Positions 11,367 through 62,214 of a stretch of 64,000 bases of DNA are shown piece by piece. The notes beneath the pieces were generated by a model. It saw only the letters and a program-made list of their open reading frames with translations. It had not been told where the DNA came from and did not search any database. The translations under genes were made by a program, and so were the position numbers. The stretch is from Sipunculus nudus (lineage: Eukaryota; Annelida; Sipuncula; Golfingiida; Sipunculidae). How positions within the stretch are numbered: position 1 is the first letter of the stretch; every line of letters starts with the position of its first letter. The stretch lies in the NCBI GenBank assembly GCA_026874595.1, contig CM049315.1, positions 78,413,401-78,477,400 of the forward strand, in the 5' to 3' direction.

Positions 11367-11797
11367 TAAGCAATAATCCTTTGTCCGTCGTCCGTCCGTC
11401 TGGCTGTCCGTCCGTTAACCAGGCACAAATCATAACCGCTGGACCTGGAAGTGGAATCTTCTAAATTGACATGCACGGAGGTCCATGAAAAATTTCCATG
11501 GAAACCTGAAATTAGGTCTGCTACCCATATTCTTCAAGCTATGGGGCTCCGAATATCACCCAAAATGAAGGAAACTTTGATACAAAAGCTCAAGTTTCTG
11601 AACAATTAATGCATTGATCACCATGATTCTTTGCATGGATATTGATCATGGAGTGTTTCATCAGTTTCTGCAGACTGGTGGCGCCACCTGTATTTTTTCG
11701 ACTTTTTATAATTTTTCCTCTATTTTTGAGACCTTAAAAGCTGCTGTCATCTGTAAAAAGAGCACAAATCATAATGACTGGAGCTAGAATATTCAAT
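11367..11797 (+). repeat. Type A core fragment
   Basis: Begins inside the type A 5' region (GCAATAATCCTTTGTCCGTCGTCC), includes the GTCCGTC run, the GGACCTGGAA and GAGCTATGGGGCTCCGAA phrases, and one exact GGTGGCGCCACC at 11,677-11,688. The subterminal inverted repeat is missing at both ends, so it is a fragment lying between a LINE and a minisatellite. Confidence 0.75.
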
Positions 11798-12150
11798 AGT
11801 GTACATTTGTACAAAGCACCAATTAACCAATGTTGCACTTTCATACAAAGCACCAATTAACCAATAGTACACATTCATACAAACCCCCAATTAACCAATA
11901 GTACACATTCATACAAAGCACCAATACTGCACATTCATACAAAGCACCAATTAACCAACGTTGCACTTTCATACAAAGCACCAATGCAAGAAACCATTAG
12001 TACACAATTATACAAATCACAAATTTATCAATATTACACATTCATACACATCACAAATTGTACAATTTCATACAAAACACCAGTTAACCAATGGTACACA
12101 TTCATACAAATCACCAGTTAACAAAAGTATATATTTGTAAAAAGCACTTA
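11797..12150 (+). repeat. 34-bp minisatellite, about ten degenerate units
   Basis: The unit reads approximately CATACAAAGCACCAATT followed by AACCAATAGTACACATT (34 bp). Some units are cut to about 20 bp by loss of the AACCAATAG part. Divergence rises toward the 3' end. It lies directly downstream of the type A fragment. Two further units occur near 9,346-9,402 beside the Penelope-like relic. Confidence 0.8.
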
Positions 12151-12286
12151 TTAACCTGTAGCCTACCAGATTCCTGTAAGTGTCTGTAAGTTTGTGTCAC
12201 ATGTTGATCTTTTAAAGTGTCTTCCATTGTAACCTATAATGGTGCTACCTAAGCCTTTTTCCAGCATGTTGGCATGTAAAGTGATT

Positions 12287-15073: not shown

Positions 15074-16173
15074 CAACTACATCACTGATGGTCATGATTT
15101 TTGGCAAACTTATTAATCATGAGAGTTTCTGCAGACTGGTGGCGCCTCCTGTATTTTTCGATTTTTTAAGAATTTTTTTCTCTATATTTGGGACCTTTAA
15201 AAATGTGGACATCTGTTAACAGGGCACAAATCATAACCACTGGACCTGGAATCTTCTTTCTTGATATTCTGAGAAACCTATGAAAAGTCTCCATGGAAAC
15301 CAGAAATTAGGTCTCTGTTACCCATATCCTTTGAGCTATGGGGCCCCAAAGTACCCCCCCCCCAGAATAGTGAAAAATTTCATACAAAACTTCAATATCT
15401 CATTAACTACATCACTGATGGTCATGATTTTTGGCATACATACTAATTATGAGATGTTCCATCAGTTTCTGCAGACTGATGGCGCCACCTGTATTTTTTC
15501 GATTTTTTTACGATTTTTTTCTCTATTTTTGAGACCTTAAAAGATGCAGTCATCTGTTAACAGGGCACAAATCGTAACAACTGGACCTAGAATCTGTTAT
15601 CTTGACATGCGGGGAGGCCCATGAAAAGTCTCCTTGGAAACCTGGAATTAGGTCTCTGTTACCCAGATATTTCAAGCTATGGGGCTCTGAAGTACCCCCC
15701 AGAATAATGAAAATTTGATTCAAAAACTTAAAATATCTGAACAACTAATGTGTTGATCACCATGATTCTATGCATGGATATTGATCATGGAGTATTTCAT
15801 CAGTTTCTGCAGACTGGTGGCGCCACCTGTATTTTTTCTATATTTTACAATTTTCTTTCTCTATTTTTGATACCTTAAAAGATGCGGTGATCTGATAACA
15901 GGGCACAAATTATAACGGCTGGACCTAGAATCTTCTTTCTTGACATGCAGAGAGGCCAATGAAAAGTCTTCTTGGAAACTGAAAATTAGGTGTCTGTTAC
16001 CCAAATCCTCAGAGCCATGGGGCTCTGAAGTATCCCCCAGAATAATGCAGAATTTGATACAAAAGCTCAAGTATCTGAATAACCACTGCATTGATCACCA
16101 AGATTCTTTGCATGAATATTGATCATGGGATGTTCCATCACTTCCTGCAGACTTGTGGCGCCACCTGTATTTT
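15074..16173 (+). repeat. Type A core, about three units
   Basis: Tandem units of roughly 335-340 bp with the order AACTACATCACTGATGG, GATCATGAGATGTTCCATCAG, CTGCAGACTGGTGGCGCCAC, T-rich block, GTTAACAGGGCACAAATC, GGACCTAGAATCTTC, GGAAACC, AATTAGGTCTCTGTTACCC, GAGCTATGGGG. Ends within the T-rich block where the hAT-like element starts. Confidence 0.85.
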
Positions 16174-18306: not shown

Positions 18307-19097
18307 ATTTTTTTTTCAAATTTTTTTCTCTTTTTTTTCAAACTTCAATGAAACTGTCATCTGTTAACAGGGCACAAATCATAACCACTGGAACTGGAAT
18401 CTTCAAACTTAATATCCAGGGAGGTCCATGAAAAATCTCCTTGAAAACCTGAAATAAGGTCTCTGTACCCATATCCTTGGAGCTATGGGGCTTGGAAGTA
18501 CCCTCCAGAATAATGCAAAATTTGATACAAAAGCTCAAGTATCTGAATAACCACTGCATTGATCACCATGATTCTTTGCATGAATATTGATCATGGGATG
18601 TTCCATCAGTTCCTGCAGACTGGTGGTGCCACCTGTATTTTTTCGAATTTTTACAAATTTATTTCTCTTTTTTTCAGACCTCAATGAAACTGTCATCTGT
18701 TAACAGGGCACAAATCGTAACCACTGGACCTGGAATCTTCAAACTTAATATCCAGGGAGGTCCATGAAAAATCTTCTTGAAAACCTGAAATTAGGTCTCT
18801 GTTACCCATATCCTTTGAGCTATGGGGCTCCGAAGTACCCCCCCCCCCCCCCCAAATAATGCAAAATTTGATACAAAAGCTCAAGTCTCTGAATAACTAC
18901 TGCATTGATCACCATGATTCTTTGCATGAATATTGATCATGGGATGTTCCATCAGTTCCTGCAAACTGGATGCACCATCTGTATTTTTTTTCAATTTTTA
19001 CGAATTTTTTTCCTTATTTTTGAGACCTTCAAAGAAGTTGTCATCTGTTAACAGGGCACAAATCGTAACTGCAGGACCTAGATTCTTCTAACTTGAC
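18307..19097 (+). repeat. Type A core, about two units
   Basis: Resumes the T-rich block after the hAT-like element and carries two further A units (GTTAACAGGGCACAAATC at about 18,362, 18,700 and 19,047). A poly-C run of 14 bases occurs at about 18,840-18,853. It stops at TTCTAACTTGACAT, where the LINE tail begins. Confidence 0.85.
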
Positions 19098-19132
19098 ATA
19101 ATAATAATAATAATAATAATAATTTATTCAAC
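19098..19132 (-). repeat. LINE 3' (TTA)n tail
   Basis: About 35 bp of ATA/AAT trinucleotide repeat directly follows interrupted type A sequence on the left and precedes the LINE 3' untranslated region. On the minus strand it reads as a TTA-type tail, expected at the 3' end of a target-primed LINE insertion. Confidence 0.8.
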
Positions 19133-19959: not shown

Positions 19960-20811
19960 ACTGTGGACATTTAAATAAATAATGAAACTCATCATCTTGT
20001 TCATTTAAGTTACATAAATCACATATATTTGAACAAGACAAATAGTTTTAATTATTACATGATGCAGGTAATCTGTGACCTCCACAACGAAATTTGGCTA
20101 AGGTTATCCTATCTGTGTAATTAAGCTGTTTCAAGTAAACTTCTAGACCTAAATCTTGTTTAAAGATTCTATAACTAGTACATGACCGGTTGCCTTCTAA
20201 TTCATTGTGCCAGTCTTGCAGATTAATATCCTTGAGTCTGAGTTCAATACTTTTGCGTAACCATTTTTTTTTTCACATCATTACCCATATGCCACATGTT
20301 TGAGTAACCACATTAATCAAGAATATTCTTAATCTTTGAAGCCCATTTTGGTTTAAAATCTGAATTATCATATAAACATTTTTGAAGCTTAAACATTATA
20401 CTAGACAATTTGGACTGTTTTCCTCCGATTAATTTTATCCAAAAATTAATCATTCTTCGTTCCACAAGGTAGTTTATAGGTATTTTGCCTAATTCACCAT
20501 AAACCATACAATTAGCTGTTTTCCTAGGTACTTTCAGTAGATTCTTAAAGAAATTTCTTTCAAATATTTCGATGTGACCCATTTTCTGAAAACCCCATAT
20601 TTCAGATCCATATAACAATATTGGGGTGACAAGGCTGTCAAATAGTTCACAGTTGATGTCAACTGGAAGTCTCAATTTTCGTGCTTTGGTGTTTAGACTG
20701 AACATGGCTAGCTTGACTTTACTGACCTGTTTGTTTATAGCCTTGTTGTATAGACCATTGTAATTGAAGGTTGTGCCCAGATAAACATAATCATCTACCA
20801 CCTCAAACTTT
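19960..20811 (-). pseudogene. LINE ORF2 C-terminal part, broken
   Basis: Starting at the junction the minus strand reads KFEVVDDYVYLGTTFNYNG, then LLYGSEIWGF and EIFERNFFKNLLKVP, the usual region after the reverse transcriptase domain. Asp is followed by TAA at 20,313. The frame resumes after a shift in a poly-A run (about 20,262-20,270) as KKWLRKSIELRLKDINLQDW, then RITLAKFRCGGHRLPASCNN, another TAA, and CSNICDLC...EFHYLFKCP near 20,035-19,960. The C-x2-C...H...C knuckle at the end is typical of CR1/jockey/L1-like ORF2 proteins. At least two stops and one frameshift make it a pseudogene. Confidence 0.8.
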
Positions 20812-23165
20812 CAGTCAAGCTGAGCTATAGCAATCACTCTTTGTTCGTTGTCCGTCTGTCCGTCCGTTAACCTGGCACAAATCGTAACCGCTGGACTTAG
20901 AATCTTGTAACTTTACATTCTGAGAGGTCAATGAAAAATCTCCTTGGAAACCAGAAATTAGGTCTCTGTTACCCATATCCATTGAGATATGGGGCCCCAA
21001 AGTACCCCCCAGAGTAGTAAAAAAATTCATACAAAAACTTCAATATCTCATTAACTACTTGACTGATGGTCATGATATTTGGCATACATATTGATCATGA
21101 GATGTTCCATCAGTTCCTGAGGACTGGTGGCACCACCTGTATTTTTCGATTTTTTACGAATTTTTTTCTCTATTTTTGATACCTTTAAAAATGTGAACAT
21201 CTGTTAACAAGGCACAAATCGTAACGACTGGACCTAGAATCTTCATTATCGACACACTGAGAGACCTATGAAAAGTCTCCATGGAAACCAGAAATTAGGT
21301 CTCTGTTACCTATATCCTTCGAGCTATGGGGCCCCAAAGTACCCCCCAGAGTAGTCAAAAATTTCATACAAAATCTTCAATATCTCAATAACTACAACAC
21401 TGATGGGCATGATTTTCGGCATACATATTGATCATGAGCTGTTCCATCAGTTTCTGCAGACTGGGTGCGCCACCTCTATTTTTTTCAAATTTTTATTAAT
21501 TTTTTTTTCTCTTTTTTTGAGACCTTTGAAGATGTGGTTATCTGTCAACAGGGTACAAATTGCAACAACTGGACGTAGAAACTTCATTCTTGTCATGCAA
21601 GGAGGCCCATGAAGAGTGCCTGTGGAAAATTGAAATTAGGTCTCTGTTACCCATATCCTTCAAGCTATAGGACTCTGAAGTATCTTTAAGAATAATGGAC
21701 AATTTGATACAAAAGCTGAAGTATCTGAACAACTTATGCGGAGATCACCATGATTCTTTGCATGGATAGTGACCATTAAGTGTTTTTATTAGTTTCTGCA
21801 GATTGGTGGAGCCACCTGTATTTTTGTATCCTCCAAAACGAAGTTTTGCAGATACCATGTTTTTGACCGGGTTCCTCCACCACCGCCACGTTTGTTTCCA
21901 GAGAGCTCCTCTGAGAAAAATGGACCGATTTTCCTGAAACTTACACCAATTATCTAGTCACATGTGAACTAGTGCCTAACCAATTTGTGTTGACCTCTGA
22001 CCTTTCCCCTCTATCCAGCGTCCTTTTGTGCGTCTGTTCCCACACATAAACCATCATATCTCGGGAACCGATTGACCAATCAGGAAATAAAATTTATACA
22101 AATGTAGCCCTTGGATTGCTTTATAACATACACAAAAATGGTGGCGCCACCTGTAACCATGTTTGCACAGTGTCCATCTGTTCATCTGCCTTGGGTTAAA
22201 ATCACTCATATCTCTGCAGTGAATTGACTAATTCACCTGAAATTCGGCATGCATATACATCCAGGATAGCTTTTTGATTTTATGACAGATGGCACCACCT
22301 ACATTCACATTCAAGCTGATCACATCCAAGCTCACATCTCAGGAACCATTTGACCAATTGGGCCAAAATTTTGCATGTGTATAGATATCACATAGCTCTT
22401 TATCATACACAAAACTGTTTTTGCACAGCGTCTGTTTTCTGCCGTGGGATAATGTCACTCATATCTCGGCAGTGGTTTGACATATCTGCCTAAAATTTTT
22501 CAGTTTTATACATCCTGGATAGCTTTCTTGATTTTATGACAGGTGGCGCCATTTACTTTCTAGTTTACGCTGCAGACATCCGAGCTCATATCTCGGGAAT
22601 CGTTTGAACGATTGGGCCAAAGTTTTGCATGTGTATAGATCTCACATAGGTCTTTATCATACACAAAACTGGAGGGGCCACCTGCAACCATTTTTGCACA
22701 GCGTCTGTCTGTTTGTCTGCTGTTGGCTAAAATCACTCGTATACATGTAGTGGTTTGACTTTTCTGCCTAAAATTTTGCATATGTATACAACTTGGACAG
22801 CTTTCTGGATTTGTGGTAGGTGGCACAACCTACATACACATTTAGGCTGCAGACATCCATGCTAATATGCAACCTACCTCACTCTATTTCCCCTTACCAC
22901 TCAATCCATGCCTCACTTCAACCGTTCCACTCTGATTTTGGCGGATACATGTGGTCACTTGTCGGCTACCTGTGTTCTAGTTTTTAAAGTTTACACATTT
23001 TTTCTCTATTTTTGAGATATATAAATAAAGACTAAATCTTGGCCTGTTGGTTAATCTGTTTGATGCTTCAGTTGAATGGGTATATACTACCATTCTGATG
23101 ATAAAATTTCCTTTAGCGAATCTCTTCCCTGTCAGCTGAGTGACATGACCCATGGGTCACTTGTT
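20812..23165 (+). mobile_element. Type A element carrying type B, 5' tip missing
   Basis: Starts at TTCAGTCAAGCTGAGCTATAG, so the first 15 or so bases including GCTCAGCTGA are absent. The A core has about three units with GGTGGCGCCACC-type palindromes. It is interrupted at 21,825 by a type B element (to 22,980) and resumes TTTTTAAAGTTTACACATT. It ends with TCAGCTGAGT (23,132-23,141), the hairpin TGACCCATGGGTCA (23,146-23,159) and CTTGTT. The right flank is LINE ORF2 sequence and the left flank is LINE reverse transcriptase sequence. Confidence 0.75.
21825..22980 (+). mobile_element. Type B element nested in type A
   Basis: The 5' hairpin is GTATCCTCCAAAACGAAG with partner TTTTGCAGATAC. The core units carry GGTGGCGCCACC (22,140-22,151). 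The 3' end has GGCGGATAC at 22,940-22,948 and ends TTCTAG at 22,980. The host site is the T-run of the A element; the type A copy at 51.0-52.3 kb has the same site without B (eight T at 52,066-52,073). There is no target duplication beyond T bases. Confidence 0.8.
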
Positions 23166-23734: not shown

Positions 23735-26700
23735 GGCCCTCAGCCCTTAGGCTGATGGGCTATTGTCGTTACCCAAGCTGTCGGTCGGTCCGTCTGTCCG
23801 GCGTCCGTTAACTTTTACCTTGTGAGTGGGATATCTTGAAAAGGATTCACCTTCAGAATTTTATTTCTTCGGTAAAGATGTATATCGACAAAATCTCGGT
23901 CAAGTTCGAAGATGGGTGACCTTGACCTATTTTTAGCTCAGCTGACTGTAAGTCATCTGAGCTATAGTCGTGGTCCTTTGTCCGTCGTCCGTCCGTCCGG
24001 CCGTCGGCCGTCCGTCCGTTAACAGGGCACGTTTTAAAACCGTTTGACCTACGAATCCAAAATTCTGCATACCATTAGATGTCCCCAAAATCTCCTACCA
24101 TACCGAAAATTGGGTCATTAGAACTTCGTTCCTACGAGATATTAAGGAAAAATCTCTGTTTTCCATAAAAAAGCAATTGTTACACTTCAAGTCTGCCTAA
24201 TATCAAAACCACTGATCTGTTTTTGATCATATTTAGTATTCATATTCTTCCATATATTTTCTGTGCACATACCAAAAATTAGGTCAGTATTGGGTATTAT
24301 TTTGAAGTTATAGGCCCAAATATAATGCAATTTTTTAAAAATCAGGAAATATATTTGCTCACTTAACATGAGAATTGCTGAAGCTGAAGACTTTTTTTCA
24401 GGAATATAACTTTATTTAATCAAGATTAAATTGTTTACCCAAAATTAGATCTGAATTTTGCAAATTTTTCAAGTTATTAGCATAAAGAAAAAATTAATAC
24501 CTTAAATTTTGTCCAACTTTGGCAGTGGCACGTTTTTTCCCTGTAAGCACTGTTGATTTAATTTTCACAGCATATATACAAAAGGATTTAATCTTTTAAA
24601 ATCTGAAATTTCAAAGAAATTGTTTGAAAAGAGTAGCTTTTATTCAAGTTTTCATACACCATGTCAAGTATTGTTTATATCTGGCCCACCTAGTAGTACA
24701 GCCTTCACTTGCATTATGTAACCCACCCAGGCAGCTTGCCTTGACCCAGCTTGGCCACTACTAGCAGGCTTCTCCTCTGCCCTGCACTCAACCCCCCCCC
24801 CCCCCCCCAGTGGGTGCATAAACTAGATAAATGTTATAATTTTCTGTATTTTATTTTATTCTTGGACATGCTACATTTTAGATTTTGGATTGTACCACCA
24901 GGGTTACAATGATTAAAGTGCACATTTAATTGTGTCCACAAAGTGATGTATTGCTATGAAAGTATGGATGTTCATCAGATAAGTAATGCTTTACTTCAGA
25001 AGAGTAAAACTTCACCAGGTGTGAAATTGACTATTAATTCCAGTTATTAATTATAGCTTAGATTGTAATTAGCATAATGATATTGTTTTTCCCTCATTCA
25101 ACCAACAGTGTGAATACTTTATTTGAAAAGATGTTTTTATTTTATCAAATTTACTGAATCTTTTATTTTATTTCGGTGAATAAAATTAAGCTTGTCCTGA
25201 AAACTCCAATGTGCAAAACTTTTTAATAGGAATTCAAGGAATAATTTTGTAGATGCCATGTTGTGGCATTATTTTCTTTTACATTCAGTTTAAACATTTG
25301 ATTTAAAAATAATAAAATATATGTGTATGCATAATATGACCCAATGTGAGCTACAATCTGGATATATAATGATTGCAACTTAGAATTCTAATATTTTAAC
25401 TTATATTTTCACTTTTATATTACAAATTTATAACACTTGTAAATAAAAAAAATGAATCAGATAAAAACTATTAATAAAAAAAGTGGATATGCTAAAAAAA
25501 TAGGCTTGTATATAAACTTAAATGCATTATTCCTTTGAAAGTGAAATGAAGGTATTAGTCCATTCTGTCCACTTGCCTGTCCATCTGTAAATTTTTCATA
25601 TGCATCACAGTATCTCAAAACTGTTACTGTTTTTCTTCATGACAGTCTTGTCAGAGTATTAGTTTGCAATCATATATTGAGAACTTTACTATAACCAAGT
25701 AGGAGGACCCTTTCCTCTTAGCTTCTCATATGCTTATATAAATATAAAACATTACAATAGAATATTTTTCATATTTTGCATTTGCAAAAATTTCAAACTT
25801 TTGTCATGACCCATGGGTCCTTTGTTTATATTCTGGATTCTCCACATCATTGTTTGGCAAAAACTGAATAAATACAGACATGGTGCAAATACTTTGCAAA
25901 TGTATATGAATATGAATATGAATATGTACTCCATTATAAAATTTCTTGCATAAGAATGGGAATTCAGGTAAAAATGAAATTATTTGAATACCAGTGCAAA
26001 TACTTTCAAAATGTATTCATGAATGCATATATTCTATAATATTATTTTAATAATTAGTTCAGTTATATTTTATTTAAAAAATCATATGATTCTCTTATTA
26101 TTTTTAATAAATATTATATTGGCACAACATTTGTTATTAAATTTTAATAAATAGTTGAACTTTTATTTTATGTGCTGCTTATAAGTTATATGGCCAGGTC
26201 AAAATCTGTGTGGCAATAGCACTCCATTTGTTAATAAAATAAGTGAAATCAATCCTCTTCCCTGTCTCCAAAAATACTATCAAAATCATACATAAGCTAA
26301 ACACCAACAACTCATAATAAAGCTTATATTTATTACCACACAAAACCAGCATATGCCTCTTTCCCAAATCATATTTTTTATCATATATAACAGCTGAGCG
26401 CCGTGACCCATGGGTCCCTTGTTTCTACATTTTTGAGCTGATTATAGAAAAACACTTAGATGCTTATTACTCAGGAACAATTTGGTGGATTTTCACAAAA
26501 CTTACTATGATTATTGGGACTGATAGTCTGTACCTGCTATACAAGTTTGGTGGCACCACCTACAATTTCTGATTTTTAATGAATTTTTATCGGATTTTTC
26601 AACTTTGGGCTTGTGAGCGGGATATCTCGAAAAGGATTCACCGTAAGAATTTTATTTTTTTGGTGAAGATGTATATTGACAAAATCTGGGTCAAGTTTAA

Positions 26701-27278
26701 AGATAGGTGACCTTGACCAATTTAGCTGATTATAGAAAAAACATTAAGAAGCTTATTTCTCAGGAACCATTGGATGGATTTTCACAATACTTACTATGAT
26801 CATAGGGACTGATGGTCTGTAACTGCTGCACAAGTTTGGGGGCGCCACCTGCAATTTCTGATTTTTTAACTTTGGCCTTGTGAGTGGGATATCTCTAAAA
26901 GGATTCACAATAGGAATTTTATTACTTTGGTGAAGATGTATATCAACAAAAATCTTGTTCATTTTCGAAGATGGGTGACCTTGACCTACTTTTCAAGGTC
27001 ACAGAGCTTATAATAGAATAAAACTTAGAAGCTTATTTTTCAGGAAGCATTTGGTGGATTGTTATGAATCATGGTACATACCTCTCCATTTTAAATTTAT
27101 AACTGAGACATGTACAGATATACATCCATGTGAGAACAGATATTTAGTACTTGTTACTGTTACCTCCTCTAAACACTGTTCTTTTGGCTGAGGGCTTTTG
27201 TCAGCTTTTGCTGATATTCTAGTTTTTCATCAGCGTTGTTCTAGTGTCTCTCAAGCCCAGCTTTTGCTGATATTCTAG
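23735..27278 (+). mobile_element. Type D Helitron-like element, itself split by type C
   Basis: The 5' end has GCCCTCAGCC at 23,736-23,745. The exact inverse GGCTGAGGGC occurs at 27,186-27,195, followed by the hairpin TCAGC-TTTT-GCTGA (27,201-27,214), TATT and terminal CTAG (27,219-27,222). A 56-bp duplication then repeats that terminus to 27,278. A GTCCGTCTGTCCGGCGTCCG run follows the 5' end. Core units of about 280 bp (GATATCTCGAAAAGGATTC, GTGACCTTGACC, GGTGGCACCACC at about 26,549) lie at 23,815-23,930 and 26,424-27,180; between them sits a type C element. Both flanks are consecutive LINE ORF1 codons, and the site is a T-run. No coding capacity is seen. Confidence 0.75.
23931..26423 (+). 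mobile_element. Type C element nested in type D
   Basis: Starts TTTTAGCTCAGCTGACTG with GCTCAGCTGA at 23,936-23,945 in a hairpin with AAGTCATCTGAGCTA. A GTCCGTCC run is followed by one C unit and the long C-specific region. It ends ACAGCTGAGC (26,390-26,399), a TGACCCATGGGTCC hairpin and CTTGTT (26,418-26,423). A second copy of the CATGACCCATGGGTCC-type end occurs internally at about 25,806. The type D core continues on both sides. Unlike A and B, the C core has no GGTGGCGCCACC that I could find. Confidence 0.75.
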
Positions 27279-27884: not shown

Positions 27885-27901
27885 GTTGACACCATAGGTC
27901 T

Positions 27902-28666
27902 GTCATCAAGGGAGGTTCATGAAAAGTCTCTGTGAAAACATGAAATTATGTCTCTGTTACCCATATCCTTCGTAGTAAGTACCCCTCAGAATAATTAAAA
28001 ATTTGATACAAATTTAAACTCCAGTATCTGAATAACCAATGCATTGATCTCCATGATTCTTTGCAGGCATATTAATCATGGAGTGTTCCATCAGTTCCTG
28101 CAAACTGGTGGCACCACCTGTATTTTTTTCAATTTTTTAGGCATTTTTTCTCTATTTATGAAACCTTCAAATGAAGTGGTCATCTGTTAACATGCCACAA
28201 ACTGTAACTGCTGTACCTAGAATCGTCTTACTTGACATCCAGGAAGACTAATGAAAAATCTCCTTGGAAACCTGAAATTAGGTTTCTGTTACCCATATTC
28301 TCCGAGCTATAGGGCTCATAAATTATACCCCCAAGAATAATTAAAAATTTGATACAAACAAAAGCTCCAGTATCTGAATAGCTAATGCCTTGATAGCCAT
28401 GATTCTTTGGATATATATTGATCATGCAGTGTTTCATCAGTTCCTGCAGACTAGTGGCACTTCCTGTATTTTTTTCAAATTTTTATGCATTTTTTTTCTA
28501 TTTATGAGACCTTCAAATGAAGTTGTCATCTGTCCAAAAGCCCACTGAAACCCATTTCTAAGGACTTTTCACAAAATTCCTGATTGTTTGCACTATGGCA
28601 GTCATTTTGCTCATTGTTCAACATTCCTTGAATTCAGCTGAGCGTCATGGCCCATGGGCCACTTGT
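27902..28666 (+). repeat. Type A core and 3' terminus of the outer element
   Basis: Resumes TCATCAAGGGAGGTTCATG in the register left off at 19,097. It contains two A units with GGTGGCACCACC-type palindromes and ends with TCAGCTGAGC (28,634-28,643), the TGGCCCATGGGCCA hairpin and CTTGTT. The last part before the end (CCCACTGAAACCC...) differs from other A tails. Confidence 0.75.
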
Positions 28667-29060
28667 TATAATGTATGGCTACATTTAAAATTCTCTAAAG
28701 TGAAACCTGTTACAGTGCATGAGTAAATATGTGCAGTAAAGAATATTGTATATATGGATAATTAGTGAGTCACTTAATTATTATCAACAATATAAATGTC
28801 AACGATATATACATCATTTATTATTATGAATGATATTTCATCAAAATACTGATTATTTGCATTTTCATTTAACTGATTATTTGTATTTTCATAACCTTAC
28901 TAGTCTATTTCATGTAATTATGTGAGGTATACATTAATATTGCATTTGTATATTTACCCAAAAATATAAAATTTATAGTAATTTTTAATTTTTAGTAGTT
29001 TTGGATTGATTAATCTGGGGGGGGGGCTTTGTCCTACACCCAGCAATGATCTGGTCTGAA
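28667..29060. other. Unassigned AT-rich spacer before the satellite
   Basis: About 390 bp with no recognised gene or repeat. It contains a G9 run near 29,020. The satellite starts abruptly after ATCTGGTCTGAA. Confidence 0.5.
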
Positions 29061-48879: not shown

Positions 48880-50805
48880 TCTTGTCAGCCCAGTGCATCA
48901 AACTCTGGGGAAGTTTAATGTATTGGACTGATATTTTGACCTGTCTATGTGTCTTTGATGGTATTCTCATTTACAAGACAGGTGGTGCCACCTACATTGA
49001 CTTTTGCAGTGTGTGCACCTGCTTATTTCTAAAGAGGAATTTGATACATCAGCCTAAAATTAGGCATGTTTATACATATCGGGTAGCTTTATAGTGTACA
49101 AGACTGGTGGCGCCACCTACAATAATTTTTGCACAGTGTATGTCCCTGCTTTTTTCACAGGAGGGGTTTGACATATCAGTCTGACATTGGGCATATGTAT
49201 ACATCTCATCATTGTATATAAGACTAGTGGTGCCAGCTAAAATAATATGTTTTCAGTCGAATGCCGACGCTGCTGCCATGGCCCCAACGGTTTCCGGAGA
49301 ACTCCTCCATAACCTTTGGACAGAATTTTTTAAAATTCGGAATTATGATCGGTCACATGTGAACTGCGGCGCCCTCATTTTTGGTTGACCTCTGACCTTT
49401 ATTCTCTGCCCAGCATCTATTTGTGGGTCTGTTTCCACACATAAACCCTCATATCTCAGGAACCGTTTTACCAATAAGGCTAAAGATTTTGCACAAATGT
49501 AGCCCTTGGAAAGCTTTATAACATACACTCAAAAATGGTGGCGCCACCTGCAACCATTTTTGCATGGCATCCATCTGTTCATCTGCCTTGGGATTAAAAC
49601 ACTCATATTTCTGCATTGGTTGGACTTGTCCACCTGAAATTTTGCATGTTTATACATCCTGGACAACTTTCTTGATTTTATGACAGGTGGCGCCAATTAC
49701 ATTCACATTTAAGCTGCAGACATCCAAGCTCATATCTCGGGAACCATTTGACCAGTTGGGCCAAAATTTTGCATGTTTATACATCTTGGACAGCTTCCTC
49801 AATTTTTGACAGGTGGCACCACCTACATTTACTCTGCAGACATCCAAGCTCATATATCGGGAACCGTTTGACCAATTGGATCAAAATTTTGCATTTGTAT
49901 AGATCTCACATAGCTCTTCATCATAGGCAAAACTGGTGGCGCCATCTGCAGCCATGTATACACAGCGTCCATCTGTTCATCTGCCTTGGGATAAAATCAC
50001 TCATAACTTAGCAGTGGTTTGACTTTTTCACCTGAAAATTTGCAGGTTTATACATCCTGGACAGCTCTCTTGATTTTATGACAGGTGGCACCACCTACAT
50101 TCAGGTTTACTCTGCAGACATCCAAGCTCATATCTCGGGAACTGTATGACTGATTGGGCCAAAAGTATGCATGTGTATAGATCTCACATAGCTCTTCATC
50201 ATAGGCAAAACTGGTGGCCCCACATGCAACAACTTATGCACAGTGTCCATCTGTTCATCTGCCTTTGGATAAAATCACTCATATCTCAGAAGTGGTTTGA
50301 CTTATAAATCCACCTGAAATTTTGCAGGTTTATACATCCTGGACAGCTTTCTCGGTTTTATGAGAGATGGCACCACCTACATTCACGTTTACTCTGGAGA
50401 CATCCAAGCTCATATCTCGGGAACCGATTGACTGATTGAGCCAAAATTTTGCTCGTGTTTAGATCTAACATAGCTCTTCATCATAGGCAAAACTGAAAGC
50501 GCCACCTTCAACCACTTATGCACAGCGTCCATCTGTTCATATGCCTTGGGATAAAAATCACTCATATCTCAGCAGTGGTTTGACTTATCCACCTGAAATT
50601 TTTCAGGTTTATACATCTTGGACAATTTTCATGATTTTATGACAGGTGGCACCACCTACATTCATGTTTACACTGCAGATATCAATGCTGATATTCAACA
50701 CACCTCACTCTATTCCCCTTGCCACATAATCCATGCCTCACTTCACCTGTCCCACCCTGATTTCTGGGGATACACATAGTCGCTTGTCGACAACCCATAT
50801 TCTAG
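48880..50805 (+). mobile_element. Type B Helitron-like element, long core
   Basis: The first part (48,950-49,250) carries an unusual core (GACAGGTGGTGCCACCTACA, GTGTGCACCTGCTT) and the usual B head hairpin is absent. From 49,250 the sequence follows the B order (TTTTCAGTCG, TTTCCGGAGAACTCCTCC, TCACATGTGAAC, TTGACCTCTGACCTT). About five core units with GGTGGCGCCACC or GGTGGCACCACC palindromes follow. The 3' end is the degraded hairpin AGTCGCTTGTCGACAACC and terminal CTAG (50,802-50,805) in T. Confidence 0.65.
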
Positions 50806-50985
50806 TTTTAAAATGTCCTAGTCTGAAACTTGCATGTCCGAAACGTCCATTTGCTGAAATCATAATGACTAAGGTAGATATGCAGGACTTAAGAGGATCA
50901 ATATTGAATTTTAAAAATAAACCTCCATTCATTCTCCCAAACTTTGCACAGCTTCCCATTAGACTTGTAGGCCTTGTTTAATTAA
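50806..50985 (+). repeat. Type E 3' tail following B
   Basis: Starts TTTTAAAATGTCCTAGTC and ends GTAGGCCTTGTT. It is shared with 54,420-54,586, so both B copies at 48.9 and 53.5 kb sit in the same host repeat, here called E. The end CTTGTT resembles the A/C end. A GATTTAAAT-rich spacer follows before the next element. Confidence 0.55.
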
Positions 50986-51037: not shown

Positions 51038-52251
51038 TTTTTAGCTCAACTGACTTTCAGTCATGCTGAGCTTTAGGGATCACTCTTTGTCCGTCGTCTG
51101 TCTGTCTGTCCATCTGTCCATTAACAAGGCACAAATCTTAACCACTGGACCTAGAATCTTGGAACTTGACATTCTGAGAGGTCCATAAAAAATCTCCTTG
51201 GAAACCAGAAATTAGGTCTCTGTTACCCATATCCTGTGAGCTATGGGGCCCCTAAGTACCCCCCCCCCCCCAGAATAGTCTACAAAAACTTCAATATCTC
51301 ATCAACTACATCACTGATGGTCATGATTTTTGGCATACATATTGATCATGAGATGTTCCATCAGTTCCTGCAGACTGGTGGCGCCACCTGTATTTTCAAT
51401 TTTTTACGAATTTTTTATCTATTTTTGAGACCTTAAAAAATGTGAACATCTGTTAACAGGGCACAAATTGTATAGACTGGACCTAGAATCTTCACTCTTG
51501 ACACAATGAGATACCTATGAAAAGACTCCATGGAAACCAGAAATTAGGTCTTTTTTACCCATATCCTTCGAGCTATGGGGCCCCAAAGTACCCCCGAGAA
51601 TAGTAAAAAATTAAATACAAAAACTTCAATATCTCATTAACTACATCACTGATTGTTATGATTTTTGGCATACATATTGATCATGAGATGTTACAACAGT
51701 TTCTGCAGACTGGTGGCGCCACCTGTATTTTTCGATTTTTTACGAATTTTTTTCTCTATTTTTGAGACCTTTACGGATGCTGTCATCTGTTGACGTGGCA
51801 CAAATTGTGACAACTGGACCTAGAAGCTTCATTCTTGTGATGCAAGGAGGCCTATGAAAGGTGTCTATGGAAACCTGAAATTAGGTCTCTGTTACCCATA
51901 TCCTTCAAGCTATAGGACTCCGAAGTATCCCTCAGAATAATGGAAAATTTGATACAAAAGCTGAAGTAACTGAACAACTAATGCAGAGATCACTACGATT
52001 CTTTGCATGGATATTGACCATTAAGTGTTTTTATTAATTTCTGCAGACTGGTTGAGCCACCTGTATTTTTTTTAAAGTTTACGCATTTTTTCTGTATTTT
52101 TGAGATATATAAATACAGACACAATCTTGGCCTGTTGGTTAAGTTTGATGCTTCAGTAGAATGGGAATATACTACCATTCAGATGATAAAAATTTCCTTT
52201 TGCGAATCTCTTCCCAGTCAGCTGAGTGTCATGACCTATGGGTCACTTGTT
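51038..52251 (+). mobile_element. Type A element without the B insertion
   Basis: GCTCAACTGA (51,044-51,053) sits in the 5' hairpin (partner TCAGTCATGCTGAGC). About three A core units follow, with exact GGTGGCGCCACC at about 51,379 and 51,714. The tail reads GAGCCACCTG, TA, eight T, AAAGTTTACGC, showing the uninterrupted B target site at 52,066-52,073. It ends TCAGCTGAGT (52,218-52,227), ATGACCTATGGGTCA and CTTGTT. This is the most compact complete A copy, about 1.2 kb. Confidence 0.8.
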
Positions 52252-53498
52252 AGTGAACCTGTGAGCTTATGCGATGGCGCCGCATCGTCCGTCCATCCGT
52301 CTTCAGCCGTCCGCCGTCGGGGGCTTGCTTTCCGCCGTCCATGGCTGTAAGTCAAAAAACCGTCGGAGCTAGCAGCTCCAAATTACATGTAAGAATTAGT
52401 CACATTTGAAACTTGGTGCCCTGGAGCTTATTATAGGATATCTGCATTAATTTAGATTTTATAGAGAAAAAGCTTAAAAAACTTTAAAAATCTTCTTCTC
52501 TGAAACTGTCCAGCCAAATTGTCCAATATTTCACAGAAATGTTTCTTGGAACAATCTCACTCAAGTTTGTTCTAAAAGGTTTCAGTTCGATGATTTTTGG
52601 CAGAGTTACAGGAAGTTGAACTTAGTCCTCTGTGCAAAAATGCATACTAAACTTAAAATCTCATTAACAGCTGGAGCTGTCATCACCAAATTTTATGCCA
52701 ATGTTTGTCACATGAGTCATATATGAAATTGAGGTGTTGGTGGCCACCTACATTGATCTGAATTTTTACAAGCAAAAATGTAAGTTTAGAATCTTCTAAC
52801 TTATACACTGTTTTTTTAAGAAACGGTTAAGCTAATAGGTTTAAACTTTACAAGAATTATTTTATGGTAGGGTTCTGCCAGTTTTATAAGAATAGTTTGG
52901 GTGAATGCAGCTGTAAAAAAGCAGTTCAGCCAATTGAAAAAGGCTTTCTGTGTTTGAAAACAGATTTGACAACATGCACACTTTCAGCAGCCAAGTCAAG
53001 AGGTCACTCAGTACAACCAGATATGGTCCAGACATCGCAATGGCAACTGACCTGGCTCTGTCTGGTGTCTAGACAATGTTTGTAGACATATAGACACAAC
53101 ATGTAGACTTCTAGACACATGGTCTAGATGCAGAATGCCCAGATTAGAATTATTGGGACTATATCTTTCAATTGTTTGAAAAAAATTGGTTTGCATTTTT
53201 TATTGAATCTGTGAGCTTATGCAATGGTGTAGTTGTCCGTCTTCCGTCATGCATCGTAGCTATCTCCAAAAGTGCAGGAGCTTGCATCACCAAAATTTTT
53301 GCAAAAATTTGTCATAAAAAAAATTCTATTGGATTTTGCTTATTTCTTGGCTAACTGCATTTTCTTATATTTTATGGGGAAGAAGCTAAAAACATTAAAA
53401 AATGTTCTTCTCTCAAACCATGCTGCCAATTTACTGTTCATCTGTACCTTTAATCCTCCCTGGTAGAAGGACCACATCCAAAATATCCTGACTGATAC
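52252..53498 (+). repeat. Type E repeat, 5' part
   Basis: Begins GAACCTGTGAGCTTATGCGA then a palindromic GATGGCGCCGCATC segment and GTCCGTCCATCCGTC run. The head recurs at about 53,205 (GAATCTGTGAGCTTATGCAA). A unit with GAGCTGTCATCACCAAATTT and GGTGGCCACC (about 52,740) is present. Its tail appears after the B element at 54,424. The layout (head, GTCCGTC run, core, CTTGTT end) parallels the A/C family, but I could not define clear subterminal inverted repeats. Confidence 0.45.
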
Positions 53499-54423
53499 AT
53501 CCTCGTTTATCTGAGTTTTGCGGATACTATGTTTTCAGTCGGACGCCGCTGCCGCTTAGGTTCCGGAGAACTCCTCCGTAACCACTGGGCAGTACTTTTT
53601 TAAATTCAGAATTATGATTGGGTCACATACGAACTGCTGTTCTCTCATTTTTGGTTGACCTCTGTACTTTCCTATCTGCCATGCATCCATTTGTGCATCT
53701 GTCTCAACACATAAACCCACATATCTAGGGAACCGTTTGACCGATCAGGCTAAAAATGTAGCCCTTGGAATGCTTTATAACATATTCTAAAAATGGTGGC
53801 GCCACCTGCAACCCTTTTTGCTCAGCGTCCATCTGTTCATCTGCCTTGGGATAAAATCACTCATATTTCAGCAGTGGTTTGACTTATCTGCCTAAAATTT
53901 TGCAGGTTTATACATCCTTGACAGCTTTCTTGATTTTATGACAGGTGGCACCACCTACATTCATGTTAACGCTGTTTATACTTCTTGGATAGCTTTCTCG
54001 ATTGTGTGGTAGATGCTGCCACCTACTTTTATGTTTATGCTGCAGACATTCAGGCCTATATCTCAGGACTGGTTTGACATATCCCCCTGAAATTTTGCAT
54101 ATGTATAGAAATTATATATCTCTTAACCATACACAAAATTGGTGGTGCTCCCTGCCACCATTTTTGCACAGTGTCCTCCTTTAATACAAGTAGTAGTTTG
54201 ACTTATATGCCTAAAATTTGCATATGTATATAACCTGGACAGTTTTCTGGATTTTGTGGTAGGTGGCGCAACCTACATACACATTTCAGCTGCTGACATC
54301 CATGCTAATATGCAACACACCTCACTCTATTTCCCCTTGCCACTCAATCCATGCCTCACTTCACCTGTTCCACTCTGATTTTTGCAGATACACATAATCG
54401 TTTGTTGACTTCCCATATTCTAG
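53499..54423 (+). mobile_element. Type B Helitron-like element inside type E
   Basis: The head is degraded (CATCCTCGTTTATCTGAG then TTTTGCGGATAC). The core has about three units, with GGTGGCGCCACC near 53,795 and degenerate copies after it. The 3' end has GCAGATACACATAATCG, a weak hairpin and terminal CTAG (54,418-54,421) followed by TTTTAAAATG. Type E sequence flanks both sides. Confidence 0.65.
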
Positions 54424-54586
54424 TTTTAAAATGTCCTAGTCCGAAATTTGCAGGTCCGAAACATCAATTTTGCTGAAATCATAATACTAAGGTAGATCTG
54501 CAGGACATAAGAGGATCAATATTAAATCCTCAATTCATACTCCCAAACTTTGCACAGGTTCGCATTAGGCCTGTAGGCCTTGTTAT
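54424..54586 (+). repeat. Type E 3' tail
   Basis: AAAATGTCCTAGTCCGAA to GTAGGCCTTGTTA, a diverged copy of 50,806-50,985. The terminal GCCTGTAGGC can fold. A TTAA insertion site lies just after it. Confidence 0.55.
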
Positions 54587-56025: not shown

Positions 56026-56681
56026 AAAAAAAATTAAATTTACAACCCTGTGACCTATCCTTTATAATTACACATCATCCTTTTTGTAAAGCTATCTTCA
56101 TGATCCTCAATCAACAGACAGTGCCACCAACATGCTATTGACCTATCATTTAAAAACAAATGAATCACAAGTTTCCCCTGCCACAGAGGTAATGTTCTCA
56201 ATATGAGCTGTAATGATACATTGTCTCACAAAACAAAACGTATCATGATACTTTTGTTGACTATACAAATCATACAGAGTAAATTAACTGTACTGGTAGT
56301 TTGGATTTCCTTATCTTTGTATGGATACATTGTTATTTCCCCTAGTCTCCCTGTTTTCTTAACCTCTACTCCAGTTCATTGCCAATACTTTGTTCCTGGA
56401 ATAAAGGGTTACAGGAACAAAGTATTGGCAATTCCTTTAGCTTGTTGAGCAAGTGGAAGCGTATGTTCTCACTGTAACACAAGCCTCAGTTTGATTTCCA
56501 GTGCAGAAGAGCTTATTAAAATAATTTTGTTTTAGTTTCTTTAACATGGGCAAAAATGTATTTGATACTCTACATCTAGATCTGGACCTTTTGAGAATGA
56601 AGTTCATCATGGTAACATACTATTATGAAATTTCAGATATATAACAATTTAATTAGAACAACTTGTTTTTGTTCTCTTCAG
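56026..56681. other. Unassigned sequence upstream of the WDR81-like exon
   Basis: No gene is recognised. A perfect inverted repeat, CCAATACTTTGTTCCTG (about 56,382-56,398) against CAGGAACAAAGTATTGG (about 56,412-56,428), can form a long hairpin. The end of the stretch is a pyrimidine-rich tract and AG (TTTTTGTTCTCTTCAG), a good splice acceptor for the next feature. Confidence 0.5.
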
Positions 56682-57851
56682 AAAGAGGAGAGGTACTTGA
56701 TGGAAATGGTGCCAAGTTTATACCACTGCCCAATTTTAGACCTTAATTGACAGGGGTGAATTCAAACATATGGCCAGAGAACAAACAAATCATCCAAATT
56801 TACCACAACCAGTAGTTATTATAAAATCAACCAAGAACTTCTTTATTGTGAAAGAATTTGTTCAGCATACTGTTCATGACTGTGTAACATTTACTCTCTT
56901 ATGCCAAACCTTTGTTCATCTCATATCAAGCTTTACAGGACGTGGGCTACTGTAACAGGAAAGGTGTCCAAGTACAGTCACTCAGTTTAAAAGATTTATA
57001 TATTGATGAAAAATTGTGGACTCAGTTGAATTTACATCACTCATCAGGTAGCTTGAAAAAAAACACCACTGCAAGGAGAGAGTAACAATTTGCATACTCA
57101 AAGGCCAATAGCACTGGATTAAACAAAAAATTTGCATACTCTCCATGAAGACACAACTCATCAGGATCAAGATGACACACATGCAGTTAGTCAGAGTAGC
57201 AAAATGACTTCTACTCATGACATTGAAGCCAGGGACCTTACATATCTTGGTACAGTTGTCCAGGAATGGTCAGAAGGTAGAATTACTAATTTTGATTACC
57301 TCATGGTGCTTAATAGATTGGCAGGCAGGAGAATGGGGGACCTAAACCATCACCCTGTTATACCGTGGGTCAGCAATTTTCAGCAGCCAAAAGGAGGTTG
57401 CCGAGATCTCACAAAATCCAAATTCAGACTCAACAAAGGTGACCATCAACTTGATTTGACATTTGACATTCCATCACCATTGCAGCCAGTGTCTAGCAGT
57501 GATTCTATGGACATTCCGCACCACATCTGATGTGCTTTCCGATATCACTTATGTGTACAAAGCTTGCAGGACTACAAACCAGTTCTGTGTGCCCACGTGA
57601 GGTCAAAATGGGTACCAATTGAGTATCCATCAAACATGCAGCACCTACAGGAGTGGACACCAGATGAATGTATCCCAGAATTCCCTACCGATCCCACCAT
57701 TTTCACCTCTATCCGTGAAGATCTGCCAGACCTTGGTATTCCTGCATGGTGCTTCGTCCTTCAGATTTCTGGGCAGTGCAGAGAAATTCTTGAAGCAGAA
57801 CATGTGGCTTCACAGCTTCACCTCTGGATTGACCTTTCATTTGGTTAAAAG
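56682..57851 (+). pseudogene. WDR81-like exon relic (BEACH region)
   Basis: WDR81 is a BEACH/WD-repeat endosomal regulator of PI3K-III activity. The relic keeps the family's order: KFIPLPNFRP, KNFFIVKEFVQHTVHDCVTF, YQALQDVGYCNRKGV, LSLKDLYIDEKLWTQL, then [81 protein letters not shown] and [10 protein letters not shown]. These switch frame several times: TAA after NFRP; shifts near 56,920, 57,528 and 57,580; a compensated pair at 57,750-57,790; and TAA in place of the Tyr after SFG. Both splice borders are intact (acceptor TTCAG at 56,677-56,681; donor AAAAG/GTAGG at 57,851), so this is an unprocessed relic, not a retrocopy. The number of breaks argues against sequencing error alone. The WD repeats are not in the window. 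Confidence 0.8.
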
Positions 57852-58130
57852 GTAGGAACATCTTTATTTATAACATTCTCTCTGTTCTCCTTAAGCACTT
57901 CAGTCACACACATTTTCACTTCTAGATTGACTTTTGATTAGTCTCATTTTCTCTGTTGACTATTCCTTTCCACATTTCACTGGATGGCATTGTGGTTTTG
58001 TGAGAAAATGCCATTTTACACTTGTGATATATATGGTCAAAAGAATTTAATTTTGTGATAGGCCCATATAAAATATCTGTGAAACTGATTTTATTTCTAA
58101 TTCTCCATTGTTCAGAAAGAAATTGTATTA
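57852..58130. other. Unassigned, possible intron remnant
   Basis: Follows the donor site of the WDR81-like relic and contains nothing else recognised before the next element starts. Confidence 0.4.
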
Positions 58131-61100
58131 TTTTTAGCTCAGCTGACTTTCAGTCATGTTGAGCTATAGCGATCACTCTTTGTCTGTCGTCCGTCTGTCC
58201 ATCCGTTAACCTAGCACAAATCGTAACTGCTGGACTTAGAATCTTGTAACTTTACATTCTGAGAGGGCAATGGAAAATCTCCTTGGAAACCAGAAATTAG
58301 GTCTCTGTTACCCATATCCTTTGAGCTATGGAGCCCCAAAGTACCCCCCCAGAAAAGTCAAAAATTTAATACAAAAACTTCAATATCTCATTAACTACTT
58401 GACTGATGGTCATGATTTTTGGCATACATATTGATCATGAGATGTTCCATCAATTCCTGAGGACTGGTGGCGCCACCTGTATCGTTCAATTTTTAACGAA
58501 TTTTTTTCTCTATTTTTGATACCTTTAAAAATGTGAACATCTGTTAACAAGGCACAAATCGTAACGACCGGACCTAGAATCTTCATTCTCGACACACTGA
58601 GAGACCTATGAAAAGTCTCCATGGAAACCAGAAATTAGGTATCTGTTACCCATATCCTTCCAGCTATGGGGCCCCAAAATATGCCCACAGAAAAGTCAAA
58701 TATTTCATGGAAAAACCTCAATATCTCATTAAATACTTGACTGATGGTCATGATTTTTGGCATACATATTGATCATGAGATGTTACATCACTTCCTGCAG
58801 ACTGGTGGCGCCACCTATATCGTTCAATTTTTTACGAATTTTTTTCTCTATTTTTGAGACCTTTCAAAATGTGAACATCTGTTAACAAGGCACAAATCAT
58901 AAAGACTGGACCTAGAATCTTAATTCTTGAAACACTGAGAGGTCCATGAAAAATATCCTTGGAAACCAGAAATTAGGTCTCTGTTAACCATATCCTTCGA
59001 GCTATGGGGCCCCAAAGTACCCCCCAGAGTAGTAAAAAATTTCATACAAAAACTTCAATATCTCAATAACTACATCACTGATGGTAATGTTTTTCGGCAT
59101 ACATATTGATTATGAGATGTTCCATCAGTTCCTGCAGACTGGTGGCGCCACCTGCATTTATGATTTTTCACGATTTTTTCCTCTATTTTTGAGACCTTTA
59201 AGGATGCTGTCATCTGATAACGTGGCACAAATCGTAACGACTGGACCTAGAATCTTCATTTTTGACACACTGAGAGACCTATGGAAAGTCTCCATGGAAA
59301 CCAGAAATTAGATCTCTGTTACCCATATTCTTTGAGCTATGGGGCCCCAAGGTACCCCCCCAGAGTAGTCAAAAATTTCATACAAAAACTTCAATATCTC
59401 AATAACTACATCACTGATGGTCTTGATTTTCGGCATACATATTGATCATGAGATTTTCCATCAGTTCCTGCAGACTGGTGGCGCCACCTATACTGTTTGA
59501 TTTTTTTACGATTTCTTCCTCTTTTTTTAGACCTTTAAGGATGCGGTCACATGTTAACGTTGCATAAATCGTAATGACTGCACCTAGAATCTTCCTTCTT
59601 TACACACTTAGAGACCTATGAAAAGTCTCCATGGAAACCAAATGGGTCTCTGTTATCCATATGCATCGAGAAATGGGGCCCCAAAGTACCCCCCAGAGTA
59701 GTCAAAAATTTAATACAAAAACTTCAATATCTCAATAACTACATCACTGATGGTCATGATTTTTGGCATACATATTGATCAAGAGGTGTTTCATCAGTTC
59801 TTGCAGACTGGTGGCACAACCTGTATTTGTTCGGGTTTTTTTTTTACGATTTTTTCCTCTATTTTTGAGACCTTTAAGGATGCTGTCATCTGTTAGCTAG
59901 CACAAATCTTAACGACTGGACCTAGAATCTTCATTCTCGATACACTGAGAGACCTATAAAAAATCTCCATGGAAACCAGAAATTAGGTCTCTGTTACCCA
60001 TATCCTTCGAGCTATGGGGCCCCAAAGTACCCCCCAGAGTAGTCAAAAATTTCATACAAAAACTTCAATATCTCAATAACTACATCACTGATGGTCATGA
60101 TTTTCGGAATACATATTGATCAATAGGTGTTTCATCAGTTCTTGCAGACTGGTGGCACAACCTTTATTTGTTCGGGTTATTTTTATGATTTTTTCCTCTA
60201 TTTTTGAGACCTTTAAGGATGCTGTCATCTGTTAGCGTGGCACAAATCGTAACAACTGGACCTAGAATCTTCATTCTCGATACACTGAGAGACCTATGAA
60301 AAGTCTCCATGGAAACCAGAAATAAGGTCTCTGTTACCCATATCCTTTGAGCTATGGGGCCCCAAAGTACCCCCCAGAGTAGTCAAAAATTTCATACAAA
60401 AACTTCAATATCTCAATAACAACAACACTGATGGTCATGATTTTCGGCATACATATTGATCATGAGCTGTTCCATCAGTTTTTGCAGACTGGGTGCGCCA
60501 CCTTTATTTTTTCAAATTTTTACGAATTTTTTTTTCTCTTTTTTTGAGACCTTTAAAGATGTGGTTATCTGTCAACAGGGTACAAATTGCAACAACTGGA
60601 CCTAGAAACTTCATTTTTGTCATGCAAGGAGGCCCATGAAGAGTGCCTGTGGAAACTTGAAATTAGGTATCCGTTACCCATATCCTTCAAGCTATAGGAC
60701 TCTGAAGTATCCATCAGAATAATGAACAATTTGATACAAAAGCTGAAGTATCTGAACAACTAATGCGGAGATCACCATGATTCTTTGCATGGACATTGAC
60801 CATTAAGTGTTTTTATTAGTTTCTGCAGACTGGTGGAGCCACCTGCATTTTTGTATCCTCCAAAACGAAGTTTTGCAGATACTATGTTTTTGACCGGGTT
60901 CATCCGCCCCCACCACGTTTGTTTCCAGAGAGCTCCTCTGAGAAAAATGGACCGATTTTTCTGAAAGTAACACCAATTATCTAGTCACATGTGAACTAGT
61001 GCCTAACCAATTTGTTGACCTCTGACCTTTCCCCTCTATCCAGCGTCCATTTGTGCATCTGTTTCCACACATAAACCCTCATATCTCGGGAACCGATTGA

Positions 61101-62214
61101 CCAATCAGGAAATAAAATTTATACAAATGTAGCCCTTGGATTGCTTTATAATATACACAAAAATGGTGGCGCCACCTGTAACCATGTTTGCACAGTGTCC
61201 ATTTGTTCATCTGCCTTGGGTTAAAATCATTCATATCTCTGCAGTGAATTGACTAATTCACCTGAAATTCGGCATGCATATACATCCAAGATAGCTTTCT
61301 TGATTTTATGACAGATGGCACCACCTACATTCACGTTCAAGCTGATCACATCCAAGCTCTTATCTCAGGAACCATTTGACCGATTGGGCCAAAATTTTGC
61401 ATGCGTATAGATATCACATAGCTCTTTATCATACGCAAAACTGGTGGTGCCACCTGCAACCATTTTTGCACAGCGGCTGTCTGTTTTCTGCCATGGGATA
61501 ATGTCACTCATATCTCGGCAGTGGTTTGACATATCTGCCTAAAATTTTGCAGTTTTATACATCCTGGATAGCTTTCTTGATTTTATGACAGGTGGCGCCA
61601 CTTACATTCCAGTTTAGGCTGCAGACATCCGAGCTCATATCTCGGGAACCGTTTAAACAATTGGGCCAAAATTTTGCATGTGTATAGATCTCACATAGGT
61701 CTTTATCATACACAAAACTGGAGGGACCACCTGCAACCATTTTTGCACAGCATCTGTCTGTTTGTCTGCCGTTGGCTAAAATCACTCATATACATGTAGT
61801 GGTTTGACTTTTCTGCCTAAAATTTTGCATATGTATACAACTTGGACACCTTTCTGGATTTGTGGTAGGTGGCACAACCTACATACACATTTAGGCTGCA
61901 GACATCCATGCTAATATGCAATATACCTCACTCTATTTCCCCTTGCCACTCAATCCATGCCACACTTCAACCGTTCCACTCTGATTTTGGCGGATACATG
62001 TGGTCACTTGTCGGCTACCCGTATTCTAGTTTTTAAAGTTTACACATTTTTTCTCTATTTTTGAGATATATAAATAAAGACTAAATCTTGGCCTGTTGGT
62101 TAATCTGTTTGATGCTTCAGTTGAATGGGTATATACTACCATTCTGATGATAAAATTTCCTTTAGCGAATCTCTTCCCTGTCAGCTGAGCGACATGACCC
62201 ATGGGTCACTTGTT
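58131..62214 (+). mobile_element. Type A element carrying B, expanded core
   Basis: GCTCAGCTGA (58,137-58,146) with hairpin partner TCAGTCATGTTGAGCTATAG. About eight A core units with periods of 334-341 bp follow (CCATATCCTTCGAGC-type marks at 58,315, 58,653, 58,991, 59,326, 59,660, 60,001 and 60,341). Each has a palindrome of the GGTGGCGCCACC kind (exact at 58,466-58,477). Type B is inserted at 60,852-62,029 in the same T-run as in the copy at 20.8-23.2 kb. It ends TCAGCTGAGC (62,181-62,190), TGACCCATGGGTCA and CTTGTT. The flanks differ from the other A[B] copy. Confidence 0.85.
60852..62029 (+). mobile_element. Type B element nested in type A (second copy)
   Basis: Same head (GTATCCTCCAAAACGAAG), core order and end (GGCGGATACATG, GGTCACTTGTCGGCTACCC, TATTCTAG) as the B at 21,825-22,980, with scattered substitutions. 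It sits at the identical position in the host A element. Confidence 0.8.

Follow-up and report, generated by a model that had tools for sequence, protein, structure and literature searches.

A 12-bp palindrome is the best-conserved part of an old module shared by tandem repeat cores in Sipunculus nudus

The anatomy of non-autonomous Helentron-like elements (HINEs) has been described in oyster, mite, and Drosophila (PMC7492417, PMC4067079, as far as the accessible portions of these papers go), and Helentron elements with satellite-like cores are reported to be abundant in oysters (PMC7492417). According to the same portion of that paper, the Cg_HINE elements of the Pacific oyster combine a 5' sub-terminal inverted repeat and its inner complement with a left-flank microsatellite, a tandem core, a 3' sub-terminal repeat followed by a palindrome, and T-rich targets, and two conserved segments recur in some of their core families, whose remaining sequence is dissimilar. 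DINE-1 of Drosophila is described as Helentron-derived, with sub-terminal repeats, a 3' stem loop, central repeats, and TT insertion (accessible part of PMC4067079). Our study concerns a 64-kb stretch of the Sipunculus nudus genome (the window; C10:78,413,401-78,477,400, contig CM049315.1, in an assembly of 1,426,538,692 bases and 153 contigs), in which tandem arrays carry the 12-bp palindrome GGTGGCGCCACC. The carriers of these arrays resemble Cg_HINE and DINE-1 by description in the structural respects just listed and may do so in their insertion targets. Unlike the oyster palindrome, which is placed at the element's 3' end, the one found here lies within each core unit, and the accessible text mentions no multi-family core palindrome for the oyster and describes no shared core palindrome for DINE-1. 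We find that GGTGGCGCCACC is the best-conserved part of an old module common to ten core families.

The first-pass annotation of the window had placed the palindrome between 11677 and 61173, once per unit in arrays of type A and about twice per unit in type B. Exact copies do lie at 11,677, 22,140, and 58,466, among 15 exact and 24 one-mismatch sites in the window where shuffles predict 0.03, but the range was drawn too narrowly, given that the first exact site is at 2,751 and one-mismatch sites occur at 298 and at 61,591-61,602, beyond it on either side. The counts per unit hold, with one palindrome in each 338-bp A unit and two in each B unit (129 + about 149 bp), and so do the close variants proposed for the D core (GGTGGCACCACC at 26,549, the form that loss of the central CpG of GGTGGCGCCACC yields) and for the core near 49 kb (GGTGGTGCCACC at 48981). 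The whole genome holds 111,729 exact copies versus 14 of the reversed control. Their density is uneven (15 exact in the 64-kb window versus 2 exact in 20 random stretches totaling 200 kb), and the first 100 exact copies listed all fall within C1:0.12-0.94 Mb. A text search of the available literature for GGTGGCGCCACC returned only an occurrence that is unrelated by its title, one for GGCGCCACC with "satellite" returned nothing on such satellites as judged by titles and the beginnings of abstracts, and three patterns searched against viral contigs gave 0 matches each. The only Rfam matches in the window were two overlapping microRNA ones, weak and below threshold, at 56.4 kb, and loci L009, L035, L032, and L039 had none at the gathering threshold.

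The 92 fetched sites with at most one mismatch form five linkage groups (44, 20, 13, 9, and 4 sites) and two singletons, and the 90 grouped sites resolve into ten families, of which Bx2 is a single copy and J lacks an exact palindrome; the overlapping loci L006 and L007, joined from the within-family comparison onward by L002 and L008, were dropped before counting. Family C, with 13 members in the fetched loci, has 0-1 mismatch to GGTGGCGCCACC, but its members were picked on that criterion. A single old module of about 95 bp, with the palindrome as its 3' boundary, is common to the ten family consensus units. Eleven of the 12 palindrome columns are invariant among them, compared with 6 of 150 other columns, and the sole variable column is a central C-to-T change in J. 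In 9 of the 10 units the palindrome is followed by a T, and TCTC stands 74 or 76 nt upstream in 7 of the 10 rows, with weak similarity in between. The annotation had also stated that flanks differ between families, which is correct insofar as pairwise identity outside the palindrome is only 0.32-0.63 (32-63%; median, 0.44) and incomplete insofar as the upstream flanks are remote homologues at nearly equal spacing. The cores seem to derive from one ancestor, so that spread of the palindrome between unrelated repeats need not be invoked; recent copying from a single ancestor, which had been named as a way to explain the pattern away, appears right as to the single source and wrong as to its age, since that ancestor seems to be an old one.

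Given that the families had been found through the palindrome, a palindrome-blind control was made with a model of the left module only, run on the window and on the 20 random stretches (264 kb). After exclusion of 21 of the 78 matches that did not span the module, 57 full-length modules remained (48 in the window and 9 in random stretches, equivalent to about 10.4 effective families). The palindrome, with at most 4 mismatches and within 3 bp of its expected place, was present in 55 of the 57 (47 window and 8 random), a criterion that random window positions pass in 32 of 4,000 trials. Family-weighted identity at the site was 0.877 (0.799 without shift), whereas other 12-column windows of the module averaged 0.652 and reached at most 0.755. 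In a wider blind list (E up to 0.1, most loci; 2 of 154 matches ran past the locus end), 126 of 154 had the site at no more than 3 mismatches, namely, 57/64 in the window, 58/72 in selected loci, and 11/18 in random loci. This control reduces selection bias without removing it, because the blind model was itself made from palindrome-bearing families.

By their anatomy, the arrays of types A and B form the cores of HINE-type elements. Both have a 5' sub-terminal inverted repeat with an adjacent inner complement: in A, a hairpin of the AGCTCAGCTGAC...GCTGAGCT type at 51043 and 58136, each one mismatch from the typed form, and in B, GTATCCGCCAAAC...GTTTAGCGGATAC at 2432 with one mismatch. Both also have a matching 3' sub-terminal repeat and then a hairpin near the 3' end. 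The A end (GTCAGCTGAGC, TGACCCATGGGTCA, CTTGTT) is exact at 62180 and has 1 mismatch at 23131 and 3 at 52217; the B end (GGCGGATAC plus CTAG) occurs at 61989 and 22940, and at 4398, where the repeat takes the form GGCCGATAC, the hairpin GTAGTCG..CGACTAC is most clearly seen. Between the ends lie central tandem arrays (338-bp units in A, about 278-bp units in B) and left-flank microsatellites, as GTCY runs after the A 5' hairpin and GCC runs in B and in family F. T-runs precede A at 51043 and 58136, and B is twice nested in the T-run of A; because the length of these runs varies, insertion without a target-site duplication is putative. Carriers of family F look by eye to have the same anatomy. 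The F cores, at L035 and other F loci, contain GGTCATGACC together with repeated AGGTCA-type stretches (AGGTCAAAGGTCAAGGTCA), which we take to resemble nuclear-receptor sites. The best 40 of 848 candidates for the 95-bp A 3' end, the only ones scored, are all 100% identical, which suggests that the A family moved recently. Segmental duplication was considered as the origin of the arrays in the window and was rejected, as most flank pairs are unmatched; the exceptions are two 35-37-bp matches, stretches that overlap one another, and a pair of B copies, one at 50.8 kb and one at 54.4 kb. These copies match over 166 bp at 83% past their 3' ends (50810-50970 and 54428-54580), and the pair may be duplicates, may sit in one host repeat, or may reflect an end of the element that was set too early.

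We lean, with a little less than even confidence, toward the possibility that this old module, carried by HINE-type elements, holds in its palindrome a putative cis-acting site that aids amplification or tolerance. In its extended form, W-GGTGGCGCCACC-T, the palindrome would be a two-fold symmetric site bound by a protein, with a host protein or a Rep/helicase as the candidate binder, and would help the element lineage to amplify or to be tolerated. Because of this help, the site would be kept in lineages that make copies and freely lost from copies after insertion. The pattern of loss in copies and retention in lineages fits a need of the site by active elements, which is why we regard it as a putative cis site, and a symmetric protein-binding site is our best guess as to the mechanism. 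One short site has remained fixed as the other module sequence drifted apart to about 44% identity, and the palindrome could offer a concrete and cheap target (a 14-bp probe) for distinguishing repeats that serve as docking sites from repeats that are filler.

Several observations weigh against this reading. Palindrome-less families may have been missed, since the palindrome led to the families and the families to the blind model, and in the wider blind list only 11 of the 18 random-stretch matches carry the site. The annotation was right that the palindrome is missing from its long C core (~12,290-14,640), where none occurs at up to 3 mismatches and GGTCATGACC is absent as well, and the half-module F2 has GGTCATGACC at about the place of the palindrome. 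Within a family, the palindrome is hardly better kept than its neighbors: conservation is 0.878 versus 0.855 in A (8 of 36 rows have no letters at the site), 0.878 versus 0.840 in B1, and 0.894 versus 0.845 in B2, and the palindrome ranks 99/262, 31/128, and 9/112 among 12-column windows. The selective conservation claimed for the site, thus, applies between families, as the 11 invariant columns and the blind comparison indicate, and scarcely within them, and the objection that its positions might be no better kept than neighboring ones is nearly borne out at the family level and fails above it. The strongest result against a strict requirement comes from B1, the family in which the site was read by its flanks alone. 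Only 6 of the 100 listed places (of 2,639) have the exact palindrome, and 54 are nearer to the non-palindromic GGAGGGGCCACC, a B1 subfamily that has clearly been widely amplified.

The foremost alternative, which we think unlikely but deserving of serious weight, is that the palindrome has no function and is the slowest-decaying remnant of common ancestry, aided by conversion among units within one array or across related ones. The single module common to the cores, the within-family conservation close to that of the neighbors, and the amplification of the non-palindromic form are all what such a remnant would leave. However, the decay of copies proceeds mainly through loss of the central CpG: of the 129 blind sites no more than 4 mismatches away from the palindrome, 28 had a changed central C and 27 a changed central G, whereas other positions were changed 3-17 times. 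Because this central pair is the fastest-decaying one of the site, low mutability does not explain how 11 of 12 columns remained invariant among families whose remaining sequence has a median identity of 44%.

A doubtful alternative is that the palindrome is a recombination or junction hotspot where arrays break, expand, and swap flanks, as the annotation had suggested in proposing a point that spreads cores between families. Precedent exists in phBglII400 of the Manila clam (GenBank U80936), in which a 12-bp palindrome holds 13 of the 16 breakpoints and a 10-bp palindrome the remainder (accessible part of PMC5139131), and this satellite is by description like family F in its two-part monomers with a 12-bp and a 10-bp palindrome. 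The DTC84 pearl element, from the same source, is likewise similar by description in its conserved palindrome close to the repeat junction. In contrast to the clam, none of the 50 measurable array borders here lies within 6 bp of the palindrome center (10 of 60 borders were unmeasurable, 5 at a locus end and 5 with no nearby site), although these borders are not independent because many B borders repeat one design. More in line with a hotspot, 4 of 10 measurable 3' borders of A stand 12.5-15.5 bp off the center, two of them being nested B insertions. Two B copies (L043; window 22330) lack the site and little else, which would suit a hotspot, as would the lack of correlation between left-flank and right-flank similarities between families (Mantel r -0.09, p 0.70); however, the latter test has little power because right flanks are near shuffled identity. 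The apparent common ancestor would suffice to account for the sharing of the site between cores.

It is quite improbable that the palindrome serves as a hairpin or cruciform in rolling-circle replication of the element, another role that had been proposed for it. The palindrome is perfect, half-module F2 has a different palindrome at about the same place, A units additionally contain TGGGGCCCCA, and the 30-base B2 context folds at -3.8 kcal/mol, a value matched by only 13 of 200 shuffles. The 12-mer alone, however, reaches only -1.3 kcal/mol, as do 90 of 200 shuffles, the A context is matched by 37 of 200, and the 5' hairpins of the elements, in their typed and idealized forms, are far stronger (A, -11.6 kcal/mol; B, -13.7 kcal/mol). 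Compensatory changes that keep the palindrome, for which the annotation had advised looking, are not above chance, with both-sided change in 1 of 129 sites versus 1.2 expected for that pair, and likewise once among 46 palindrome-like B1 sites. A CTCF-like insulator site is very improbable: the half-site AGGTGGCGC resembles part of the CTCF core motif, and the T after the palindrome gives AGGTGGCGCC on the opposite strand in nine of the ten families, but the other half of the motif was not seen in the A, B1, B2, and C flanks, which were read by eye with no motif-matrix search.

A broader form of the preferred reading, that of a protein-binding cis site, is speculative, and we would expect it to fail. 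It holds that the one thing at least 10 Helentron-like core families must keep is a fixed dimeric site, which a germline host or replication protein would bind, that they have seeded this site at perhaps 300,000 places, counting decayed copies (extrapolated from the window, where 15 of the 39 near-exact sites are exact), and that the same machinery may orient insertions toward chromosome ends.

As a side observation, the module clusters fetched from C1:0.1-0.93 Mb (L001, L003-L005, L029-L048), near the left end, are minus in 27 of 27 cases, whereas those of the window, which lies 1.2 Mb short of the right end of C10, are plus in 10 of 10. In random stretches, 6 of 7 module clusters are minus. 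Of the A 3' ends listed (40), four lie no more than 2.1 Mb from a left end (one on C1, two on C4, and one on C7), and all four are minus. For one B1 branch across C1:0.3-39.6 Mb, 42 of 82 copies are plus, and strand clustering is not significant (p 0.10-0.39). Because strand is coherent near the left end of C1 and the right end of C10, elements may point to the nearer chromosome end, and a bias of insertion toward the telomere is possible; this is a lead only, as a single stretch of one chromosome supplied most of the clusters. Insertion of IS200/IS605 follows fork direction (accessible part of PMC5371812), and an orientation toward the nearer end may be what would be expected were insertion here to do so.

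The annotated features of the window all lie on the plus strand. The A element at 51043..52251 has the 5' hairpin and sub-terminal repeat, the GTCY microsatellite, 338-bp units, and the 3' sub-terminal repeat and hairpin, with exact palindromes at 51377 and 51712. The A element at 58136..62214 has both ends and exact palindromes at 58466, 58804, 59141, and 59477, and a B element with an exact palindrome at 61165 is nested in it (60854-62033). The A element at 20797..23165 has a damaged 5' end (7 mismatches), variants at 21126 and 21805, an exact copy at 22140, and a nested B element at ~21827-22984. These two A elements, with B nested at the same place, are 93% identical over 2.3 kb, so the A+B composite may be mobile as one unit or may have been duplicated whole. 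The remaining A-type sequences are a core fragment at 11369..11798 (exact palindrome at 11677), core arrays at 15075..16173 (sites 15138, 15478, 15816 [exact], and 16154) and 18308..19102 (variant at 18622), and a core at 27901..28667 (variant at 28107) with an A-like 3' end at 28633-28667 (4 mismatches). The B element at 2432..4438 runs from the 5' hairpin to the 3' end CTAG and contains exact palindromes at 2751 and 4000 plus decayed copies; its B1 units at 3010-3573 have GGAGGGGCAACC or GGAGGGGCCACC and resemble the genome-common non-palindromic subfamily. A further B element at 49242..50809, whose 3' end was found and whose 5' end was set by similarity, has sites at 49537 (exact), 49812, 49935, 50084, and 50645, and another at 53514..54427, with a 3' end 12 mismatches from the typed end, has sites at 53795 (exact), 53944, and 54262. 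The D-type core, which equals family H, spans 26433..27060 with variants at 26549 and 26838, and I/J-type modules span 48895..49237, with GGTGGTGCCACC as above and an exact palindrome at 49106. The interval 52253..52748 covers the beginning of a further element, akin by eye to family C (distinct from the annotated long C core), with GGTGGCCACC at 52739-52748. A 167-bp satellite at 29059-39318 (62 copies, 96% matches) is without the palindrome at up to 3 mismatches, and an open frame at 57123-57527 holds part of a BEACH domain (PF02138, E 1.9e-13).

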